This document shows positions 46,153-57,655 of a stretch of DNA of 64,000 nucleotides, piece by piece; position 1 is the stretch's first letter, and every line of letters starts with the position of its first letter. The DNA lies in the NCBI GenBank assembly GCA_017427265.1, contig JAFRTG010000027.1, forward strand, positions 278,076 to 342,075, read 5' to 3'. The notes under the pieces are model-generated. The model saw only the letters and a program-made list of their open reading frames with translations, was not told the origin of the DNA and searched no databases. The DNA comes from Oscillospiraceae bacterium (lineage in GTDB: Bacteria; Bacillota; Clostridia; Oscillospirales; Ruminococcaceae). Both the position numbers and the translations under genes were made by a program.

Positions 46153-47373
46153 ATGAAAAAGAAAGAGCAAGAAAACATTCAGAATCAGGTAATGGAAGGC
46201 TTTAACCCCAGAGTGTACCGATCGCTTTCCTTCCTGTTTACCGTTCTGACCATTTTGAATGTCATTGTTATTGTGTATGCCTTTGCCAGAACCGGATACG
46301 GGCTCTGGCATGCAGAGGACGCGCTGAGCTACATTGCCAAAATCGACAGCAACTTCGGCGATATCAATCAGAGCGTTCTGAAAATCCAGATTTATTCTGA
46401 TGATAAGACGGTTGTTGCAAATAATATTGACCGCATCAACGACTACCATCAGGGGATTCTCGTCAATTCACAGGCGTTCAGCGAGATTAATCTGAGCAAT
46501 ATCGACAAGAGCCTTCCCGTTGATTTTACTGCGGCGATGAATAAAATCGAGCAGTATTACAATTCGATTTCCGGACAGCTGAACGAAATCAAAAAGGGCA
46601 GCGTGGATCCGGCCGTTCTGCAGGATGCGGAATCGGAGCTTCTGCGGGAAAACGCTAAGGTTGCCATTGACCAGATGTTTGAAAAGCAGGATAAAGCCAC
46701 GTACCTGTTTTTCTGCCGTGTCGGACAGAGCTTCCTGTTTGTGCTGCTGTTCCTGGTGCTCACCCTGTCTGCCGGACTGTATGCAATCTTCAGAATCAAA
46801 AAGCACGACTATGATTTTGCGATGAAGCTGCAGAGCAGTAAGGAAAAAACCGCAAATATCCGCCAGAAGGCCGTAGAAATTGCTTATACCAATGTCGTTA
46901 CCGGTCTGCGGAACCGGTATGCACTCGATGATATGCTCGATGAGCGCCTGAAAAAAGAAGATGTTACGGTTGCACTGTATGACTTCAGCAATTTCAAAGG
47001 CCTCAACGAACAGTACGGGCGCGATTTTGGAGATGAATTCATTTCGGTCGTTTCTCAGAAGATCGTGGAGTCATTCGGGAATCAGTCGGAGATCTTCAGT
47101 ACAGAAGTTGACGAGTTCTTTGTTGTATTCGACAAGAACCTGCCGAAGAGCAGAGTCAACAGCATTTCGCACAGGATTCTGCACATTCTTTCTGAGCAGT
47201 ATCTGATCCGCGGGGCAACAATCCAGATGAATGTTGCCGGCTGCCTCTGTTTCTGCAAAGCCAATACTTATCCTTCAGCCGATCTTCTCTTCAAAGCAAT
47301 GGATCAAAGCATGAATCATACCAAATCGCAGTGCATGCAGCAAAACCGCAGCCTGCTTCTGCCGCTTCAGTAA
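46153..47373 (+). CDS. Membrane protein with degenerate GGDEF domain
   Basis: A 406-residue protein. TM1 (SFLFTVLTILNVIVIVYAFA) and TM2 (SFLFVLLFLVLTLSAGLYAIF) flank a roughly 150-residue helical extracytoplasmic domain. A GGDEF-type domain follows (VVTGLRNRYALDDML, YDFSNFKGLNEQYG). The signature position reads EVDEF, so both glycines are lost. Diguanylate cyclase activity is therefore unlikely. It may bind GTP or c-di-GMP or act as a scaffold. It lies alone between its own promoter and a terminator. Confidence 0.82.
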   Translation: MKKKEQENIQNQVMEGFNPRVYRSLSFLFTVLTILNVIVIVYAFARTGYGLWHAEDALSYIAKIDSNFGDINQSVLKIQIYSDDKTVVANNIDRINDYHQGILVNSQAFSEINLSNIDKSLPVDFTAAMNKIEQYYNSISGQLNEIKKGSVDPAVLQDAESELLRENAKVAIDQMFEKQDKATYLFFCRVGQSFLFVLLFLVLTLSAGLYAIFRIKKHDYDFAMKLQSSKEKTANIRQKAVEIAYTNVVTGLRNRYALDDMLDERLKKEDVTVALYDFSNFKGLNEQYGRDFGDEFISVVSQKIVESFGNQSEIFSTEVDEFFVVFDKNLPKSRVNSISHRILHILSEQYLIRGATIQMNVAGCLCFCKANTYPSADLLFKAMDQSMNHTKSQCMQQNRSLLLPLQ

Positions 47374-50669: not shown

Positions 50670-51164
50670 TTACGAGAATTCAGCTATAAAAGATTCTTTG
50701 GTGTACTTTTCAATTCCAGGGTATTTCCAGAACGAAAGGTGCTTAAAAACTTCTTCGATATTTGCTGCTCTTAACTGTATACAAGAAAGTAGATAGTGTT
50801 TTTTCTTAAAATCATCGAATGAATCAATGGCATTAGGTACTAATGTAACACGTTGGTTAGGGTAGCATTCTGCCTTTAAGATACCGTTTTTATGAATGCG
50901 GCTCATAAAATGTCTATTACGATATTCAGGAAAGATAGTTATCTGTATATCATAATCTCCATAAAAAAGAACGCCGCCAACAATTTTAGTTCCTTTATCT
51001 GTTACGATAAGAAACTTATCTAATGTTACCAAATCATTTCTTTGTTTATCAGTAAGATGAATAAAATCATTTGCTGTCACTCGATATGTACTTCCATCAG
51101 GCAACAATTCGCCAAATGGTAGATGAATACTTCTTAGCAGGTTTTCAAATGCCGATTCAGTCAT
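50670..51164 (-). CDS. GNAT-like acetyltransferase fold protein
   Basis: A 164-residue protein. The central strands IVTDKGTKIVGGVLFYGDYD, ITIFPEYRNRHFMSRIHKNGIL and YPNQRVTLVPNA follow the GNAT pattern, with PEYRNRHFM at the acetyl-CoA pyrophosphate loop. The Q/R-x-x-G-x-G motif is imperfect, so activity is uncertain. The start at 51164 (MTESAFENLL) has AAAGGAG upstream. It is the third gene of a unit with the Mrr-like nuclease and the AAA ATPase (75-nt gap). Its role there is unknown; a GNAT could modify tRNA or protein. Confidence 0.55.
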   Translation of the reverse strand: MTESAFENLLRSIHLPFGELLPDGSTYRVTANDFIHLTDKQRNDLVTLDKFLIVTDKGTKIVGGVLFYGDYDIQITIFPEYRNRHFMSRIHKNGILKAECYPNQRVTLVPNAIDSFDDFKKKHYLLSCIQLRAANIEEVFKHLSFWKYPGIEKYTKESFIAEFS

Positions 51165-51238
51165 TCTTTTCTCCTTTTTTAGCAACGTTTGATATGTTCT
51201 TAACCATTTCAAAAGTAGTCATCAGAAATAGCGGCACT

Positions 51239-52231
51239 TCATTCTATTGCATTTATTACAGGTATATAAACCATCTTCAACGGTATCATCTTCCTGTACT
51301 TCTCGCTGAGACTGTCGTAATATTTCAATATCAGATCAACCAGCTCTTTACCATTGATGCCACGGATAATAGGTGTATTGTCGAGGTATTTCTGAGCCTT
51401 CTTAGTGTAGTTTGAGAGCGTCACGAACAGACCATAATCACCCTCACGCATAGCACCTTTCAGCGACTGTATAGTGGTCTCCTTAATATCACCGTCCTGG
51501 CTCTTGACCTGAACAAGTATCCTTGGTGGAAGCTCGTCTTTATAGGCGGTAATATCAATACCGCTGTCACCGCCATGTGGGGAAATGGTTGTCCTATATC
51601 CCATAGCACTCAAAAGATCAGCCACAAATTCTTCAAGGTCATAGCCTTTAAGATTTCGGCTCAGTTCTTTAAGAATGTAATCTCTTGTATTTTCAATTAT
51701 CTCGTCTGCGGTTGCAGCAACAGTTTCATCATCGGCGGTATCTGCTGAAACAGTACCCTTGAAGTTCTTGTCTAAAGCTGCAAGAAACTCGTCGGCGTAG
51801 TTTCTGACTGAAAAGAAAGACATAGCCGAACCGATCTCATACAAAGCACCCTGCGAAAAAGCTGTCCTCGGAAGATGCTTCAACCATTTGACTTTACGCT
51901 GCTGAACATAACTTTCCGTATCAGGTTCGTATATGTAGTTGCTCTCAACAGTTCCGATGTTGATCTCTCTGTTGTTCTTTGACGGGAATACAATATAGTC
52001 ACCGATCTGGACTTCATGGGCAAATCGGTATAGCATACCTGCACTGGTTGCAACTTTCATCTTCTTATCATCGGGATATGTCTCGATGTATTTTTTCTTG
52101 AATGCATCACGGTCCGGAGCAATCTTGCTGAGGTTACCAATTTCATTCCAACCGATAGCTATAACATCTTCTTTTAAGAACAGGTTATCGTCAAGGGTAT
52201 GGATTCCCCATACTCGTTTTTCTTCTGACAT
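51239..52231 (-). CDS. Mrr-like restriction endonuclease with sensor-type N-terminus
   Basis: A 330-residue protein. The N-terminal half (VWGIHTLDDNLF, IAIGWNEIGNLS, AHEVQIGDYIVFPSKNNREINIG, FSQGALYEIGSA) is a domain found at the front of many Mrr-family proteins. It is probably an EVE/PUA-like reader of modified bases. The C-terminal half is a PD-(D/E)xK Mrr nuclease: LEEFVADLLSAMGY, GGDSGIDITA (Asp) and ILVQVKSQDG (Q-x-K). Such proteins cut modified foreign DNA (type IV restriction). It starts 11 nt after the AAA ATPase stop, so both are in one operon. Confidence 0.82.
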   Translation of the reverse strand: MSEEKRVWGIHTLDDNLFLKEDVIAIGWNEIGNLSKIAPDRDAFKKKYIETYPDDKKMKVATSAGMLYRFAHEVQIGDYIVFPSKNNREINIGTVESNYIYEPDTESYVQQRKVKWLKHLPRTAFSQGALYEIGSAMSFFSVRNYADEFLAALDKNFKGTVSADTADDETVAATADEIIENTRDYILKELSRNLKGYDLEEFVADLLSAMGYRTTISPHGGDSGIDITAYKDELPPRILVQVKSQDGDIKETTIQSLKGAMREGDYGLFVTLSNYTKKAQKYLDNTPIIRGINGKELVDLILKYYDSLSEKYRKMIPLKMVYIPVINAIE

Positions 52232-52242
52232 GGTTTAGCACC

Positions 52243-54471
52243 TCATTCTTTATTTTTCTTTTCATCGTCTATACTCATCATCATATTATAGTGGGCGATG
52301 TGACCTGAAATATCAAACACTTCTTTAAATACTGCTTTGTATTTTTCAATTGAATCTGAATAACTATCAATATACAAATCATCAGGAATTGAATGTGAAC
52401 CATCGTTTATCCAATAGAACAATGATTCACAGATCTGCTGTTCTTCGATAGTCTGAAACTTCTTTTTTATATGGTCGTATTTCCGATTTCCAAGCATACC
52501 AAAATAGTTTTCAATAATACGCCGCATTGTATTTTGAATTGTAATAAAAGATGAAGTGTTAGTATCTATTAATTCACGCCAAAGAAGTTCATACGAAGTG
52601 TGAATGGGATTGTTATGCTTATACGTAATTATTCTTGAAACGGACTCGTCTTTATGCAAAATCCAATAACTTACATCGTTTGAGTTATCAATTTTACCAT
52701 CAACAAAAGAAGCTTCTTTATGAAAGAACACATTATGCGTAAAAATGAATATCTGTTTTATATTTGAGTCGCCTTTTTTGACATCACATACTAATGATTT
52801 CACCAAGCAACTGACGATATATAGAATTGTACTATCCAAGCTACAAATAGGATCGTCTATTATCAATATTTTTTCAGTAGAAACTCTTGATATGTCCGTA
52901 GCACCTTTAGTAAGTTGTAAAAAATACAAAAAGGATATGAATGTTTCTTCGCCTTCACTCAGTGTGTTACTTGCCAATGATCCGTCAGGACGTTGAATCT
53001 GATAACAATTATCTTTTGTAGGCGAAGGAACAATCTTGAAATTATTAAAGCCATATGCCTTAAGCAATCTATTTATCTCATCAACTGTAGGCTGAACACT
53101 TGATATGTTCTTGTTTTTTTCTATTATTTGTGTCTCGATTTCAATGATTTCTTTTTCAAAACTGTCGATCGAACTACTTATCCCTGTTATTGCTTTATCG
53201 AAGTTTTTACAGTCTTTTAAGTATCCTGAAATAAGAGCCTCTTGCTCATCAAGGAGAAAAGTCCATATTTCTGCTATAAGGTTATTCTTTTCAGTCGCAA
53301 AGTTATCAACCATAGTGTTATGATTCTGAATTGTTTCGTTTCCTACACTAATCAGTTTTAGAATAGACTCAATATCGGTACGATTTAGCGTCACACTACG
53401 GCTTGGTTCTTTTATTTTTTTCTCTATTTCACTCTTATTAGCGCTGATATTTGCTTGCACAGCATCAATAAGTGCTTTTATTCTTCCAATATCAACCTTT
53501 GATATTGAAAAGAATGAATCGTTTGTGAGTATATCTGTCAGTAGTTTAATCATTCTCTGACCGCACTCTTCATAACTGGTTTGAAAAATCGATAAAGCCT
53601 GCAAATGCGTTTCATATTCTCTGTTGAAGAATTGTTCTAATTGTGATTTTAATGCATCAGTTATTGTATCTTGCTGACAGAAAGGACATTTACAATCATC
53701 GCCTAAATATTTCATACCATTTTGCACCCAGTCTGAGTTCCCTAAATGAGAAATCAATGCTGCTATCGGAACATCTTGGTTTCCAACAATATGCTTAGCC
53801 CATATATCGTTTACCTCTACAGATTGTAATTCAGCAAGTAAATCTTCATAATCTAAATATAGCTGATCGAATTTTTGCGGTTTTTTAGCAAATAGAGTTG
53901 TTGCTTTTTTTAGTAATTCTTCTCGTGTGTGCGGAGAAGAATGATCTTCATTATAACGTTTAATTACCTGATCGAAGAAAGTTTTCTTGCTTGCTCTAAA
54001 ACCAGTAAATGCCTCTTGGAAATCTGCTTCATTTTGCTTTAGTATGACATTCCATATCGTATCTTGAAAATCCTGTGTATGTTTCTCTAATTCTTCTTTC
54101 TTTTGTTGTAATAAAGTCTTTTTCTTTTTAACTTCATCTGATAATCCCTTTTTTCTCGCTTTCAAAGCATCTATAGCTGTCATATCATCAATTACATCTT
54201 TGCCAAGTGTGAAAATACCGTCTATATCACCAGAGAAATTTGTCTCCTTGAAATGTCTGTTGTAAACCAACACTTCTAACGGTTGATTAAACTCCCATTC
54301 CACAATACAATCTGCATATTTTGTTCCCGTCATATCTTGAAAATAATTGCTGATGGTTGATTTTCCGCTTCCGTTAGGTCCGTAAATAAAATTAACCTTT
54401 GAACACTCAGATAATTCTATGCCACTTTCATCGTATGTGGCACAATTACGCATTGCTATTTTCTTAATCAT
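52243..54471 (-). CDS. RloC/AAA_13-like ATPase with possible anticodon-nuclease motif
   Basis: A 742-residue SMC-like ATPase. Walker A is FIYGPNGSGKST, then long coiled coils with a zinc-hook-like CKCPFCQQ near residue 270. The ABC signature is in SNTLSEGEETFISFLYFL, Walker B in KILIIDDPICSLDS and the switch His in FTHN. The C-terminal part has RRIIE about 40 residues before NDGSHS. This fits the Arg-x3-Glu...His layout of PrrC/RloC anticodon nucleases. It may cleave tRNA when phage or DNA damage is sensed. The gene is clearly AT-richer than its neighbours. Start at 54471 (MIKKIAMRNC); a GTG lies nine nt upstream. Confidence 0.8.
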   Translation of the reverse strand: MIKKIAMRNCATYDESGIELSECSKVNFIYGPNGSGKSTISNYFQDMTGTKYADCIVEWEFNQPLEVLVYNRHFKETNFSGDIDGIFTLGKDVIDDMTAIDALKARKKGLSDEVKKKKTLLQQKKEELEKHTQDFQDTIWNVILKQNEADFQEAFTGFRASKKTFFDQVIKRYNEDHSSPHTREELLKKATTLFAKKPQKFDQLYLDYEDLLAELQSVEVNDIWAKHIVGNQDVPIAALISHLGNSDWVQNGMKYLGDDCKCPFCQQDTITDALKSQLEQFFNREYETHLQALSIFQTSYEECGQRMIKLLTDILTNDSFFSISKVDIGRIKALIDAVQANISANKSEIEKKIKEPSRSVTLNRTDIESILKLISVGNETIQNHNTMVDNFATEKNNLIAEIWTFLLDEQEALISGYLKDCKNFDKAITGISSSIDSFEKEIIEIETQIIEKNKNISSVQPTVDEINRLLKAYGFNNFKIVPSPTKDNCYQIQRPDGSLASNTLSEGEETFISFLYFLQLTKGATDISRVSTEKILIIDDPICSLDSTILYIVSCLVKSLVCDVKKGDSNIKQIFIFTHNVFFHKEASFVDGKIDNSNDVSYWILHKDESVSRIITYKHNNPIHTSYELLWRELIDTNTSSFITIQNTMRRIIENYFGMLGNRKYDHIKKKFQTIEEQQICESLFYWINDGSHSIPDDLYIDSYSDSIEKYKAVFKEVFDISGHIAHYNMMMSIDDEKKNKE

Positions 54472-54580
54472 AGTTCTCACCTATTAAGACAAACATCGGT
54501 TTACAACGTTTTTTCATCATGTTAATGGATACACCTGCGGGAACTGCATGAGAAGTGTTGTGCACATTCTTCAAGACGCT

Positions 54581-55183
54581 CTAATCCCCTACAACGCACG
54601 CCACGATCACATCACAGAACGCCCTACCATCTACCACCGACCTTACCGCCGCATCGAGCATCGTATCCCGATCCACACGGCTCCAGTCCAGCGTAAATCC
54701 ATAGCGCATCGCCATACACCGTATCAGCTCACGGATGCTTCTGCCGTTGCCTTCACGGAACGGATGAATGATATTCAGCTCGGACATGATATAGGACAAA
54801 TGCTCGATCTGGCGTTTCCTGTCCGTTTCTTGCAGCATTTTCTCGCTATGCAGCTTGGCAAACACCTTGTCAAGCTCCTGACCGATCAGATGCGGCGGAT
54901 AGAACATGGTATCGCCCTTGCTGATCTGCTCACGGCGGATAAGCCCTGCAAACGGGTAGATATCCTCGAACAGAAAACGATGAATATTCATAAGTTGCGT
55001 CTTGGAAAATCGCCCCTTGATCGGCGATTCCATCAGCATATACTGTTTAAGGGCGGTGATCTCCTCCTCCGCCCTTTTCAGCTCGTCCCTGTCGCGGATA
55101 TTCAGCTTATTTTTCAGCACATCAGAATCCGGATAGCAGTAGAGCGACTGCACCGTGGTGTACACATCATATTTTGAAAACAT
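54581..55183 (-). CDS. fic: Fic-domain toxin
   Basis: A 200-residue Fic protein with the complete catalytic motif HPFREGNGRS (HPFx[D/E]GNGR), so AMP transfer to a target protein is likely. The N-terminal segment YPDSDVLKNKLNIRD and IYPFAGLIRREQISKG are typical of short Fic/VbhT-like toxins. No inhibitory helix is built in. The partner at 55183 provides it. Its start shares one base with the antitoxin stop (TAATG). Confidence 0.92.
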   Translation of the reverse strand: MFSKYDVYTTVQSLYCYPDSDVLKNKLNIRDRDELKRAEEEITALKQYMLMESPIKGRFSKTQLMNIHRFLFEDIYPFAGLIRREQISKGDTMFYPPHLIGQELDKVFAKLHSEKMLQETDRKRQIEHLSYIMSELNIIHPFREGNGRSIRELIRCMAMRYGFTLDWSRVDRDTMLDAAVRSVVDGRAFCDVIVACVVGD

Positions 55184-55383
55184 TACTCCGCCCTCTGATA
55201 CTTTGCTTTCAGCTCTGCCATGATCTGCTGAAAATTTGCCTGACCGCTGGCATATCGGTCAAGGTTGCGTCTGCTCGCTTCACTCATTGTGAGCCCCTCG
55301 ATCGCCATTGTTCCGGCAACGCTCCGGATCATCTTCTGATGCTCCTCAGCACTGACCGGCTTTTTCTGTACTTGCGGTTTCAT
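55183..55383 (-). CDS. Class I Fic antitoxin (VbhA/FicA-like)
   Basis: A 66-residue protein. The inhibitory helix carries TMAIEG, matching the [S/T]xxxE[G/N] motif that blocks ATP binding in Fic enzymes, within MIRSVAGTMAIEGLTMSE. The start at 55383 (MKPQVQKKP) has AAAGGAGG upstream. The antitoxin gene precedes and overlaps the toxin gene, the usual order for this type. Confidence 0.88.
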   Translation of the reverse strand: MKPQVQKKPVSAEEHQKMIRSVAGTMAIEGLTMSEASRRNLDRYASGQANFQQIMAELKAKYQRAE

Positions 55384-55513
55384 ACGTCTGCCTCCTTTGA
55401 GAGTTCCTGATCCATCTTCTATTAGCTTGGATGCCACGGGCTCTCGTTGTTAATCTTGCTTCATAAGCTGTAAGTTTCGGTTTCAAAAATTTTCTACTTC
55501 TGTAGATTGTGAA

Positions 55514-57655
55514 TCATATTTCTTCCAATCCTAAAGACATTAAGTAAGCATATGTCCCATCATAATATTCCGGAATTCTTGTAGTATCTTCCCAGAATCC
55601 GCCAACTGTTTTATTTGCATTTCCTTCGGGAACGCAGATCACAAGACCTTTTCTTGCTCGGGTAAGCAGAACACGGTAGGCGTTAAGCATATATTTTCTA
55701 CGCTCCTGCATACTTTCGCTGTCACCGTTCTGTTCATTCCATTTCGTCTGCCCGTTGAATTTATAAAAATGCCATTCACCATTTTCATACCGCATATCTG
55801 CATCCCACAGCAGACAGGCATAATCAAGCTCCAGTCCCTGAACCTGAATCTCTGTTGCAGCATCTTCCAGATAGTTGGAAGAACGTGTATCCGTCTTATC
55901 TTCAAGGAACCAATGCACAGCATTTTCATCGCCGGAAGGCAGAATATGTACAGCCAATGGCTTAAAGCGTGCAGCTTCTTTTGTGACAAGTATACCTGTT
56001 CTTTCAGTTCCCATTGCCCTGTCCCTGAGCCATTTTCTTGCCGTATTCATATTTCTTGTCAATACAATGGGGTATTTATCACAGAACTCTCGATACACGT
56101 TATTAGCCTGTTCGTCAAAGGATAACAGCATATGAACAAAGGTGGAGAGCTTTTCAGCCCGGAAGGAACGCAGATTAACGCTGAGATGCAAGTCAGCTGA
56201 GAATGTGACATTCTTGTTTTCTCTCAGCAGTTCATTTACCCTGCCTTCCGCATATTCAGACTCTGTAAGCTTTGGTGATATATATACTTTCCAATCAGGG
56301 AAATCGTTATTCAGTGCATTGATCCACTCGGATATGCCTGCTTCGCCTGTATTGATCTCCTGACCGCCTCCGACCAAGCAAACGATGGTTGCCCAGTCCT
56401 CTCTCTGATCCAGCGACCAGATCAGGAAACCGGCTTCCGACATCGGGAAATTCGGAACTTTCAGTTTGTTTCCGTAGGTTCCGCCACGCTTTAGGTACTC
56501 TGCAAGACGTTTATGTGTCCATGAGCGCTGTGCCTCATCAAATATCGCTACGTGTTCGACTTCACCATAACCGGATTCAGCCATTTTAACAGCTTTCTCA
56601 GGATCAATTTCAAGCACTCCGTTCTCCACGGGATTTTTGATCTTGGCAAGCATATTGTCACGATAGCGATGGATCATATTGATGAACTTACCGACTTCAC
56701 GGCGTGAATCAGTTATTTTTTTGCTTTCTTTTCTTGCCTTGCATTTTTCATAGTTATCCTTAGCAAGTGCTTCTGTTAAAACAGCAACCAAAGGACCGTT
56801 ACCTGATAAATAAACAGCGCCTTCATCATCAACCGGTTTATCGTGTCCCTGATATGTCTGCCTTACAGCAACTTCCAGTCCGACAAGTGTTTTTCCCGCA
56901 CCCGGCACACCTGTCACAAAACAGATGCTCTTTTCACCGTTACGCTTGCTTTTTTCTATCACATCAAGGATACATGAGATCGTCGCGTCTGTGGAGACCT
57001 TATCGGCTTCATGCCTTGTAATATCCTCAACAGAATGACTTTCATACAGCGTTCGGGCAGCTTCGATAATAGTCGGTGTTGGTGCATACGGGCTTATGAT
57101 CCAGTTTTCTTCAAGCGGCGGAAGGTCGGGGTATTTCTCTATTACTTTATGTATGAGCTCCTGCAATCCTTTTTCACCCGATATCAAGGGATTAAGTACA
57201 TTATCATCATATACAGATTTCTGTATAACAGTGGAACTCCTTTGATACTTTGATACTATCAGAATGGGTACGATCAGGCGATTCTCGCTGAATTTATGAA
57301 AGTTCGTCAGATCAAGAGCATAGTCAAGAACCTGATCTACATCAGCTTCTGCCAGTGCATCTTTATTACCGGTTTTGAACTCTATGCAGAAAATAAGACC
57401 TTTCAGGAGTAGAACCACATCAATTCGTTTTCCAAGACGTGGGATATCGTATTCAAATATGATCTTTCCGCTTTCATTTTTAAATGATGGTAGAACGTTC
57501 TTCATTAATGCTATTTCACTTTTCCATGCCTCCATCTGAGTGCTCTGAACAGCACCGTGATAGCCGTCACAAAGAATACCGAGTATCGATTGTTCGGCAT
57601 CGGACAAAAATGCTGAAAAACGATTATGATACAAGCAGCGGGTACTCTTTTTCAT
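55514..57655 (-). CDS. Nuclease-DUF2075 helicase fusion
   Basis: A 713-residue protein. The N-terminal ~200 residues look like a PD-(D/E)xK nuclease fold (IPRLGKRIDVVLLLKGLIFCIEFKTG, with Asp and E-x-K). The rest is a DUF2075/superfamily 1 helicase-like ATPase: Walker A GVPGAGKT, Walker B VAIFDEAQRSW, motif V-like QVQGLELDYACLLW and motif VI NAYRVLLTRARKG. It has its own minus-strand promoter (TTGAAT-17-TATAAT near 57703-57731). Proteins of this design are common in defence islands. A DNA-targeting antiviral role is inferred. Confidence 0.8.
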   Translation of the reverse strand: MKKSTRCLYHNRFSAFLSDAEQSILGILCDGYHGAVQSTQMEAWKSEIALMKNVLPSFKNESGKIIFEYDIPRLGKRIDVVLLLKGLIFCIEFKTGNKDALAEADVDQVLDYALDLTNFHKFSENRLIVPILIVSKYQRSSTVIQKSVYDDNVLNPLISGEKGLQELIHKVIEKYPDLPPLEENWIISPYAPTPTIIEAARTLYESHSVEDITRHEADKVSTDATISCILDVIEKSKRNGEKSICFVTGVPGAGKTLVGLEVAVRQTYQGHDKPVDDEGAVYLSGNGPLVAVLTEALAKDNYEKCKARKESKKITDSRREVGKFINMIHRYRDNMLAKIKNPVENGVLEIDPEKAVKMAESGYGEVEHVAIFDEAQRSWTHKRLAEYLKRGGTYGNKLKVPNFPMSEAGFLIWSLDQREDWATIVCLVGGGQEINTGEAGISEWINALNNDFPDWKVYISPKLTESEYAEGRVNELLRENKNVTFSADLHLSVNLRSFRAEKLSTFVHMLLSFDEQANNVYREFCDKYPIVLTRNMNTARKWLRDRAMGTERTGILVTKEAARFKPLAVHILPSGDENAVHWFLEDKTDTRSSNYLEDAATEIQVQGLELDYACLLWDADMRYENGEWHFYKFNGQTKWNEQNGDSESMQERRKYMLNAYRVLLTRARKGLVICVPEGNANKTVGGFWEDTTRIPEYYDGTYAYLMSLGLEEI

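Follow-up and report, generated by a model that had tools for sequence, protein, structure and literature searches.

The locus described here lies in a 64,000-nucleotide stretch of an Oscillospiraceae bacterium genome (contig JAFRTG010000027.1; hereafter the window, to which all coordinates refer). Its main elements are a gene for an ATPase of the RloC anticodon-nuclease family and, directly downstream, a gene for an Mrr-type nuclease; both were compared with a sister locus, L061, at the same chromosomal site in a metagenome-assembled genome (MAG). A first-pass annotation had read this region as three open reading frames (ORFs), all of which were recovered at the same coordinates, on the minus strand and in the same direction. 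The described motifs and the spacing of exactly 11 nt from the stop of the ATPase gene to the start of the nuclease gene also held, as did the defence setting, while the start of the small third gene and its GNAT label required correction. The main features are as follows.

52243..54471, minus strand: RloC-family ATPase/anticodon nuclease, 742 aa (AAA_13, E 4.3e-176; PADLOC PDC-S06, E 1.2e-247)
54355..54381, minus strand: Walker A motif GPNGSGKST, ATPase residues 31-39
53677..53688, minus strand: zinc-hook motif CPFC, ATPase residues 262-265, both cysteines in 41 of 41 aligned rows
52510..52524, minus strand: R650-X3-E654 of the anticodon-nuclease triad, R in 40 of 41 rows and E in 41 of 41
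52393..52395, minus strand: H693 of the triad (GSH), in 25 of 25 rows of a chosen alignment and 37 of 41 of a wider one
51239..52231, minus strand: Mrr-type nuclease with a putative modified-base reader domain at its N-terminus, 330 aa (Mrr_cat, E 3.4e-24; PADLOC PDC-S02, E 1.9e-139)
51752..52231, minus strand: N-terminal domain of the nuclease, residues ~1-160, the same domain as on AAA_5 proteins at loci L111 and L074
51329..51658, minus strand: Mrr_cat domain of the nuclease, residues 192-301 (E 3.4e-24), D226 and K243 in 16 of 16 aligned rows
54485..54508, minus strand: methyltransferase-gene remnant, 24 nt, corresponding to the final 8 codons (stop codon counted) in the gene for a 615-aa methyltransferase at L061

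The ATPase begins at ATG 54471; an alternative GTG at 54480 would give 745 aa. Residues 9-720 matched AAA_13, and PADLOC returned, besides PDC-S06, a weaker match to PrrC (E 4.6e-11). The head of an ABC ATPase was present, with Walker A, an LSEGE signature and Walker B, and the C-terminal layout was R650-X3-E654-X38-H693. RloC has been defined by Arg-X3-Glu-X36-52-His, a CX2C hook and a length of 658-897 aa (available text of PMC2610378), and the window protein agreed on all three counts: triad spacing, hook and, at 742 aa, length. In an alignment of 25 rows, comprising the window and 24 sequences that we chose from 35 RloC loci in genomes, C262, C265, R650, E654 and H693 were invariant, and across a wider alignment of 41 rows they were retained in 41, 41, 40, 41 and 37, respectively. 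The coiled-coil insert expected around CPFC lies within the AAA_13 match. Searches of solved structures returned one irrelevant match with the single sequence and only coiled-coil-like chance matches with a profile. By its sequence, the ATPase is a member of the RloC anticodon-nuclease family, as the first-pass annotation had proposed from the CPFC hook and the RxxxE...GSH layout; it probably cleaves tRNA, an activity assigned from published work on RloC.

The nuclease was aligned with its relatives in 16 rows, all of which matched Mrr_cat; Q241 was present in 14 and replaced by E in the other two. Its PADLOC family, PDC-S02, was reported as abundant in rumen genomes (available text of PMC13356809). 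The first 160 residues had no match in Pfam, and the winged-helix domain Mrr_N (PF14338) gave no hit at E up to 0.01 in any of the 16 members; the Mrr protein of locus L080, by contrast, matched Mrr_N at E 2.6e-28. The same N-terminal domain occurred on an AAA_5 protein of Rhodococcus (L111) and on one of Capnocytophaga (L074), where the next gene encodes McrC, RloC lies three genes on and a Fic gene five genes on. Because the domain is shared with a McrB-like protein, it is reasonable to regard it as probably a reader of modified DNA. Of the earlier description of an Mrr-like nuclease with a modified-base reader, the catalytic core and the separate N-terminal domain were thus borne out, with base reading kept as a probable function. 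No relevant solved structure was returned for the nuclease at E up to 1.

Locus L061 was among the 35 loci obtained when the genome-contig collection was scanned with RloC. The isolate name of this MAG contains "Lapin", which we read as pointing to a rabbit gut. The RloC and nuclease genes of the two loci are 91% identical in DNA, and the loci share three collinear blocks, at 60737-58026 (78%), 54514-51253 (91%) and 50655-50205 (84%). The middle block consists of RloC and the nuclease, short of the last few nuclease codons. Between the blocks on the upstream side, L061 carries genes for two proteins of the Eco57I/N6-methyltransferase type (1022 and 615 aa) and the window carries a Schlafen (SLFN) helicase, a VbhA-like gene and a Fic gene; on the downstream side, L061 has a protein kinase and the window an orphan. 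As the flanking genes differ between the two loci, the RloC-nuclease pair is the unit that they share. At L061 the RloC frame is intact and the nuclease frame is interrupted, leaving ORFs of 135 and 127 aa, although a sequence error in the MAG is possible.

A trace of the exchanged module was found just before RloC in the window. Aligned without gaps from the RloC start codon, the 24-nt remnant was identical to L061 at 20 of 24 positions, and identity fell to 8 of 24 immediately upstream. Among 127,952 24-mers of the window on both strands, one reached 20/24, and that one was the remnant itself. The simplest reading of the two sequences is that the ancestor of the window locus had methyltransferase genes and later lost them, a direction of exchange that we infer. 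Synonymous divergence (dS) between the window and L061 was 0.34 for RloC, 0.35 for the C-terminal piece and 0.60 for the N-terminal piece of the nuclease, 0.85 for the gene on the left flank and 0.59 for that on the right. As the N-terminal nuclease piece has diverged as far as the right flank, these values do not show clearly whether the pair moved later than the genes around it. The ratio of nonsynonymous to synonymous divergence (dN/dS), which is an average for all the time that has passed since the two loci separated, was 0.14 for RloC and 0.12 and 0.07 for the two nuclease pieces; on these ratios, the pair is kept under selection. Taken together, the comparison suggested a defence operon that exchanges its restriction-modification (R-M) module and retains an RloC-nuclease core.

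The pair looks like the core left over from an older operon of R-M, RloC and Mrr genes at a hotspot where modules are swapped. Our favoured reading, which we hold to be probably correct, is of a two-gene unit of RloC and a reader-bearing Mrr nuclease with this origin, in which RloC is probably self-contained and any cooperation between the two proteins would pass through DNA ends. The company kept by each family elsewhere bears on this reading. An R-M gene lay within three called genes of RloC at 14 of the 35 genome loci, which include the near-copies L062/L070, L063/L064 and L072/L074. These R-M labels came from profiles built on annotated plasmid genes and from proteins named by eye, so distant R-M genes may escape; they were confirmed with Pfam where scanned (L045, L048, L051, L061, L067, L070, L080, L088, L118, L119 and L139). 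Among plasmids, 190 records matched RloC, and six were opened: RloC stood beside type I genes at L096 and L099, near an Eco57I-type methylase at L101 and beside no labelled R-M gene at L097, L098 and L100. When partner type was placed on the RloC tree (38 rows, omitting RloC fragments, L054, which is apparently on the same contig as L067, and the divergent L057 and L060), 13 changes were counted against a shuffled mean of 14.1, and 45 of 200 shuffles were as low. Partner type did not track the tree, as a generic sensor of DNA ends would allow.

Nucleases of the window type kept R-M genes as neighbours more regularly. Apart from L061, 13 relatives had at least 60% identity, and 12 of them had an R-M match within three genes. 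Ten of these 12 are firm. For the other two, L047 and L049, the match is to fragments (139 and 137 aa) that fit the type III profile built here and no Pfam family. At L125 the flank spans only some 1.5 kb, and L046, the one relative without an R-M gene, lies among metabolic genes. More distant relatives had R-M genes nearby at 5 of 8 loci, at 4 of 6 further viral contigs and at 2 of 10 loci from the class, where flanks were short. RloC was present at none of the 37 loci of nuclease relatives, and among the RloC loci scanned, a match to the nuclease profile was found only in the window, L061, L080, L074 (N-terminal domain only) and L069 (weak). On a contig of the viral collection (L139, 7944-16056), a nuclease relative (33%), HsdM, HsdS, PrrC and HsdR follow in that order; this PrrC has 376 aa (E 1.1e-146), and HsdR carries an EcoR124-type C-terminus. 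We regard this contig as an independent meeting of the nuclease family with an anticodon-nuclease family. The pairing of RloC with an Mrr-type nuclease is thus real but rare, comprising the window and L061, which are one homologous locus, together with the PrrC analogue at L139. Judged by these neighbourhoods, nucleases of this kind habitually accompany R-M systems; in genomes RloC often does so too, and occasionally the two come together.

Other partners of RloC were also seen. RloC lay directly downstream of Eco57I-type methyltransferase genes at L061, L067, L070 and L080, according to Pfam, and at L059 and L062, according to the script profile only. This is a kind of R-M partner other than the type I and type III systems discussed for RloC in the available text of PMC2610378. 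At L080, an Eco57I/MmeI-type enzyme is followed by RloC and, two genes on, by a classical Mrr. At L069 (2407-6683), RloC closely follows proteins that resemble PglZ and BrxL, perhaps within a BREX-like locus. A type I system elsewhere in the source genome was considered as a partner for the window RloC and set aside: no HsdS match was found in that genome, in a search that did not extend to type III and C5 methylases, and the N6-methylase matches were two, in frames of 4195 and 276 aa.

Several observations weigh against the favoured reading. No R-M gene lay within three genes of RloC at 21 of the 35 genome loci, some of which are cut by contig ends. In viral contigs, where 33 of the 77 loci found were examined (L143-L175), many of them near-copies, only 2 of 33 RloC loci had an R-M gene within three genes, a result that argues against any regular link between RloC and R-M genes. 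Four of the 41 RloC rows, the distant relatives L055, L056, L057 and L060, lacked the aligned histidine. Given its interrupted frame, the nuclease of L061 may be dispensable in that genome. In principle, an insertion that re-used existing sequence could also have produced the remnant, and the pair itself has been seen at a single homologous locus.

The mechanism that would follow from the favoured reading begins with RloC. Most likely, RloC is self-contained, with a Rad50-like head and zinc hook that would sense DNA ends and release the C-terminal RNase, leading to cuts in the tRNA anticodon and a stop in translation. The switch is taken over from published RloC work, in which an internal switch answers to linear DNA and a DNA-break inducer also activates the protein (available text of PMC3874168). 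The Mrr-type enzyme would probably use its N-terminal domain to bind modified phage DNA, which it would then cut; for E. coli Mrr, DNA damage has been inferred from the induced SOS response (available text of PMC12707154). If the two proteins cooperate, a cut made by the nuclease, an R-M enzyme or the phage could supply the linear DNA that activates RloC. By analogy with the published switch, RloC could plausibly be triggered by an Mrr cut. Less likely is a guard that responds when Mrr fails, because published RloC responds to linear DNA and not to R-M loss. The first-pass annotation had proposed that the ATPase senses failure of the nuclease; this does not agree with that switch or with the intact RloC beside an interrupted nuclease at L061.

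The alternative that survives best is independence: RloC and the nuclease would be separate defence genes at a common hotspot, possibly on one transcript, and would never act on each other. We consider this possible though unlikely. It would fit a site that swaps modules, RloC partners that vary regardless of the tree, the interrupted nuclease at L061 and the lack of RloC beside any of the 13 nuclease relatives with at least 60% identity (L061 aside). However, the 11-nt spacing of the two genes speaks against it, as does the way in which the pair stays together while both flanking modules differ; a nuclease relative also occurs in a type I-PrrC operon, although this is 1 of 37 relatives' loci. 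Also considered was a two-stage defence in which Mrr cuts modified phage DNA and the resulting ends switch on RloC, stopping translation. RloC would then be a general second stage behind any first stage that cuts DNA (type I, type III, Eco57I-type, McrBC or Mrr), which would explain why its partners change regardless of its tree; we hold this scheme to be rather doubtful.

It is very unlikely that the locus is a decaying leftover that has lost its R-M genes and whose RloC and Mrr genes have ceased to work. The methyltransferase remnant before RloC and the interrupted frame at L061 would suit such decay, but in the window the two ORFs are unbroken and keep their motifs, and dN/dS was 0.07-0.14, though averaged since the two loci parted. 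Least probable of all, and barely credible, is a guard of the PrrC kind, in which the Mrr-type protein keeps RloC silent until phage inhibition frees the tRNase: PrrC is held by a type IC enzyme in this way and released on phage inhibition (PMC2610378 and PMC3874165, in their available text) and the two genes here are adjacent, but in Acinetobacter baylyi RloC was not set free by the loss of R-M genes and could still be activated by a DNA-break inducer (available text of PMC3874168), RloC is intact beside the interrupted nuclease at L061, and few RloC loci match the nuclease profile. The same A. baylyi result, together with a 2008 survey that placed 8 of 72 RloC genes at R-M loci of type I or III (available text of PMC2610378), does not support the earlier statement that RloC normally guards type I systems.

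On the favoured reading of a two-gene core, the pair has a wider use. RloC responds to DNA breaks, and the kind of break that it encounters when a phage infects the cell is a question that such a pair makes directly testable: with RloC next to a nuclease that probably cuts modified phage DNA, one can ask whether a cut made by the nuclease turns RloC on.

The remaining genes of the site belong to other modules.

50670..51164, minus strand: orphan ORF outside the conserved unit, 164 aa
54581..55183, minus strand: Fic/Doc-family gene of a neighbouring module (Fic, E 8.2e-16; PADLOC PDC-S04)
55183..55437, minus strand: VbhA-like antitoxin gene (Pfam VbhA, E 8.1e-05, 23 bits, curated cut-off of 25.9 not reached)
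55514..57655, minus strand: Schlafen-group-3 helicase gene of a neighbouring module (SLFN-g3_helicase, E 3.2e-66; PADLOC PDC-S41, E 5.1e-241)

The small gene downstream of the nuclease likely starts at ATG 51164, behind AAGGAG and 74 nt from the nuclease stop. It had been labelled GNAT-like. A gene does follow the nuclease, but the label did not stand: in Pfam at E up to 1, the sole match was Ribosomal_L21p (0.14) and none was to GNAT, PADLOC and NCBIfam gave no match, and the sole PHROG match, to an acetyltransferase family at E 0.18, is a hint only. Among solved structures, a TRAP-transporter receptor matched (E 0.0013 with the whole sequence, 0.008 with a stretch of it) and was judged unrelated. 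Among 394 genomes of the order and 30 of the genus, the gene was found in its own genome only. In 391 genomes of the class, four matches were obtained at E up to 0.01, its own genome and three others, and the latter (E 7.7e-4, 0.0024 and 0.0099) were inspected by eye and judged to be chance. One of these carries two stop codons and falls in no matching ORF; by eye, the other two fall in a radical-SAM-like protein and at a ribosomal-protein-L21-like gene. No match to the small gene was found in plasmids, phages or viral contigs (the last searched with peptide patterns); the genome-contig collection was scanned with RloC only. The small gene is an orphan that belongs to the swapped module and not to the RloC-nuclease unit, because L061 has a protein kinase gene at the same place. 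A three-gene defence system, as first proposed, was dismissed on these grounds. Overall, the RloC-like ATPase, the Mrr-type nuclease and the defence setting of the earlier interpretation remain, and the trio, the guarding of a type I system and the sensing of failure do not.

Upstream, the Fic, VbhA-like and Schlafen-group-3 helicase genes lie on the same strand as the ATPase and had been overlooked; 109 nt separate the end of the Fic gene from the start of the ATPase gene. The VbhA-like/Fic pair and the helicase (54581-57655) form a further defence module at the same site. A GGDEF-domain protein at 46153-47373 (E 8e-18) is unrelated to RloC and the nuclease. Promoter and terminator signals at the locus were no more numerous than in shuffled sequence, and repeats around it showed nothing telling.

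Recent surveys list RloC as a defence system (available text of PMC12322248 and PMC12447246), and one survey, in its available part, correlated RloC with susceptibility, not resistance, to test phages. RloC itself, and RloC with R-M and Doc genes, were already known; of a pairing with an Mrr-type nuclease, no account was found in the literature searched, which lacked bioRxiv and most subscription papers, so that its absence is unproven. The window nuclease resembles Mrr and other type IV nucleases in its Mrr_cat core with D and QxK, and differs from E. coli-type Mrr in its N-terminal domain, which is not the winged-helix Mrr_N and is found on AAA_5 proteins, in L074 before McrC. The locus as a whole resembles the E. 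coli immigration control region, where type I R-M genes lie near McrBC and Mrr and the locus has alternative DNA segments (available text of PMC3874165). It differs from that region in having RloC in its core; the K-12 arrangement is not known to include an anticodon nuclease. With PrrC of EcoprrI, a type IC system, the window ATPase shares homologous ATPase motifs and the triad, but PrrC is about half the size (341-416 aa), has no hook insert and is linked to type IC R-M loci (available text of PMC2610378), whereas the window protein has 742 aa with CPFC, no hsd genes among its scanned neighbours and no HsdS match in its genome. The window ATPase is like the RloC of Geobacillus kaustophilus and A. 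baylyi ADP1 in its ABC head, CXXC hook, triad and length. Known RloC genes are rarely linked to type I or III R-M systems (PMC2610378), and the association of a subset with R-M and Doc/Fic genes has been described (PMC3710099), in the available text of both sources. The window RloC is set apart from them by its neighbours, an Mrr-type nuclease downstream and Fic and VbhA-like genes upstream.

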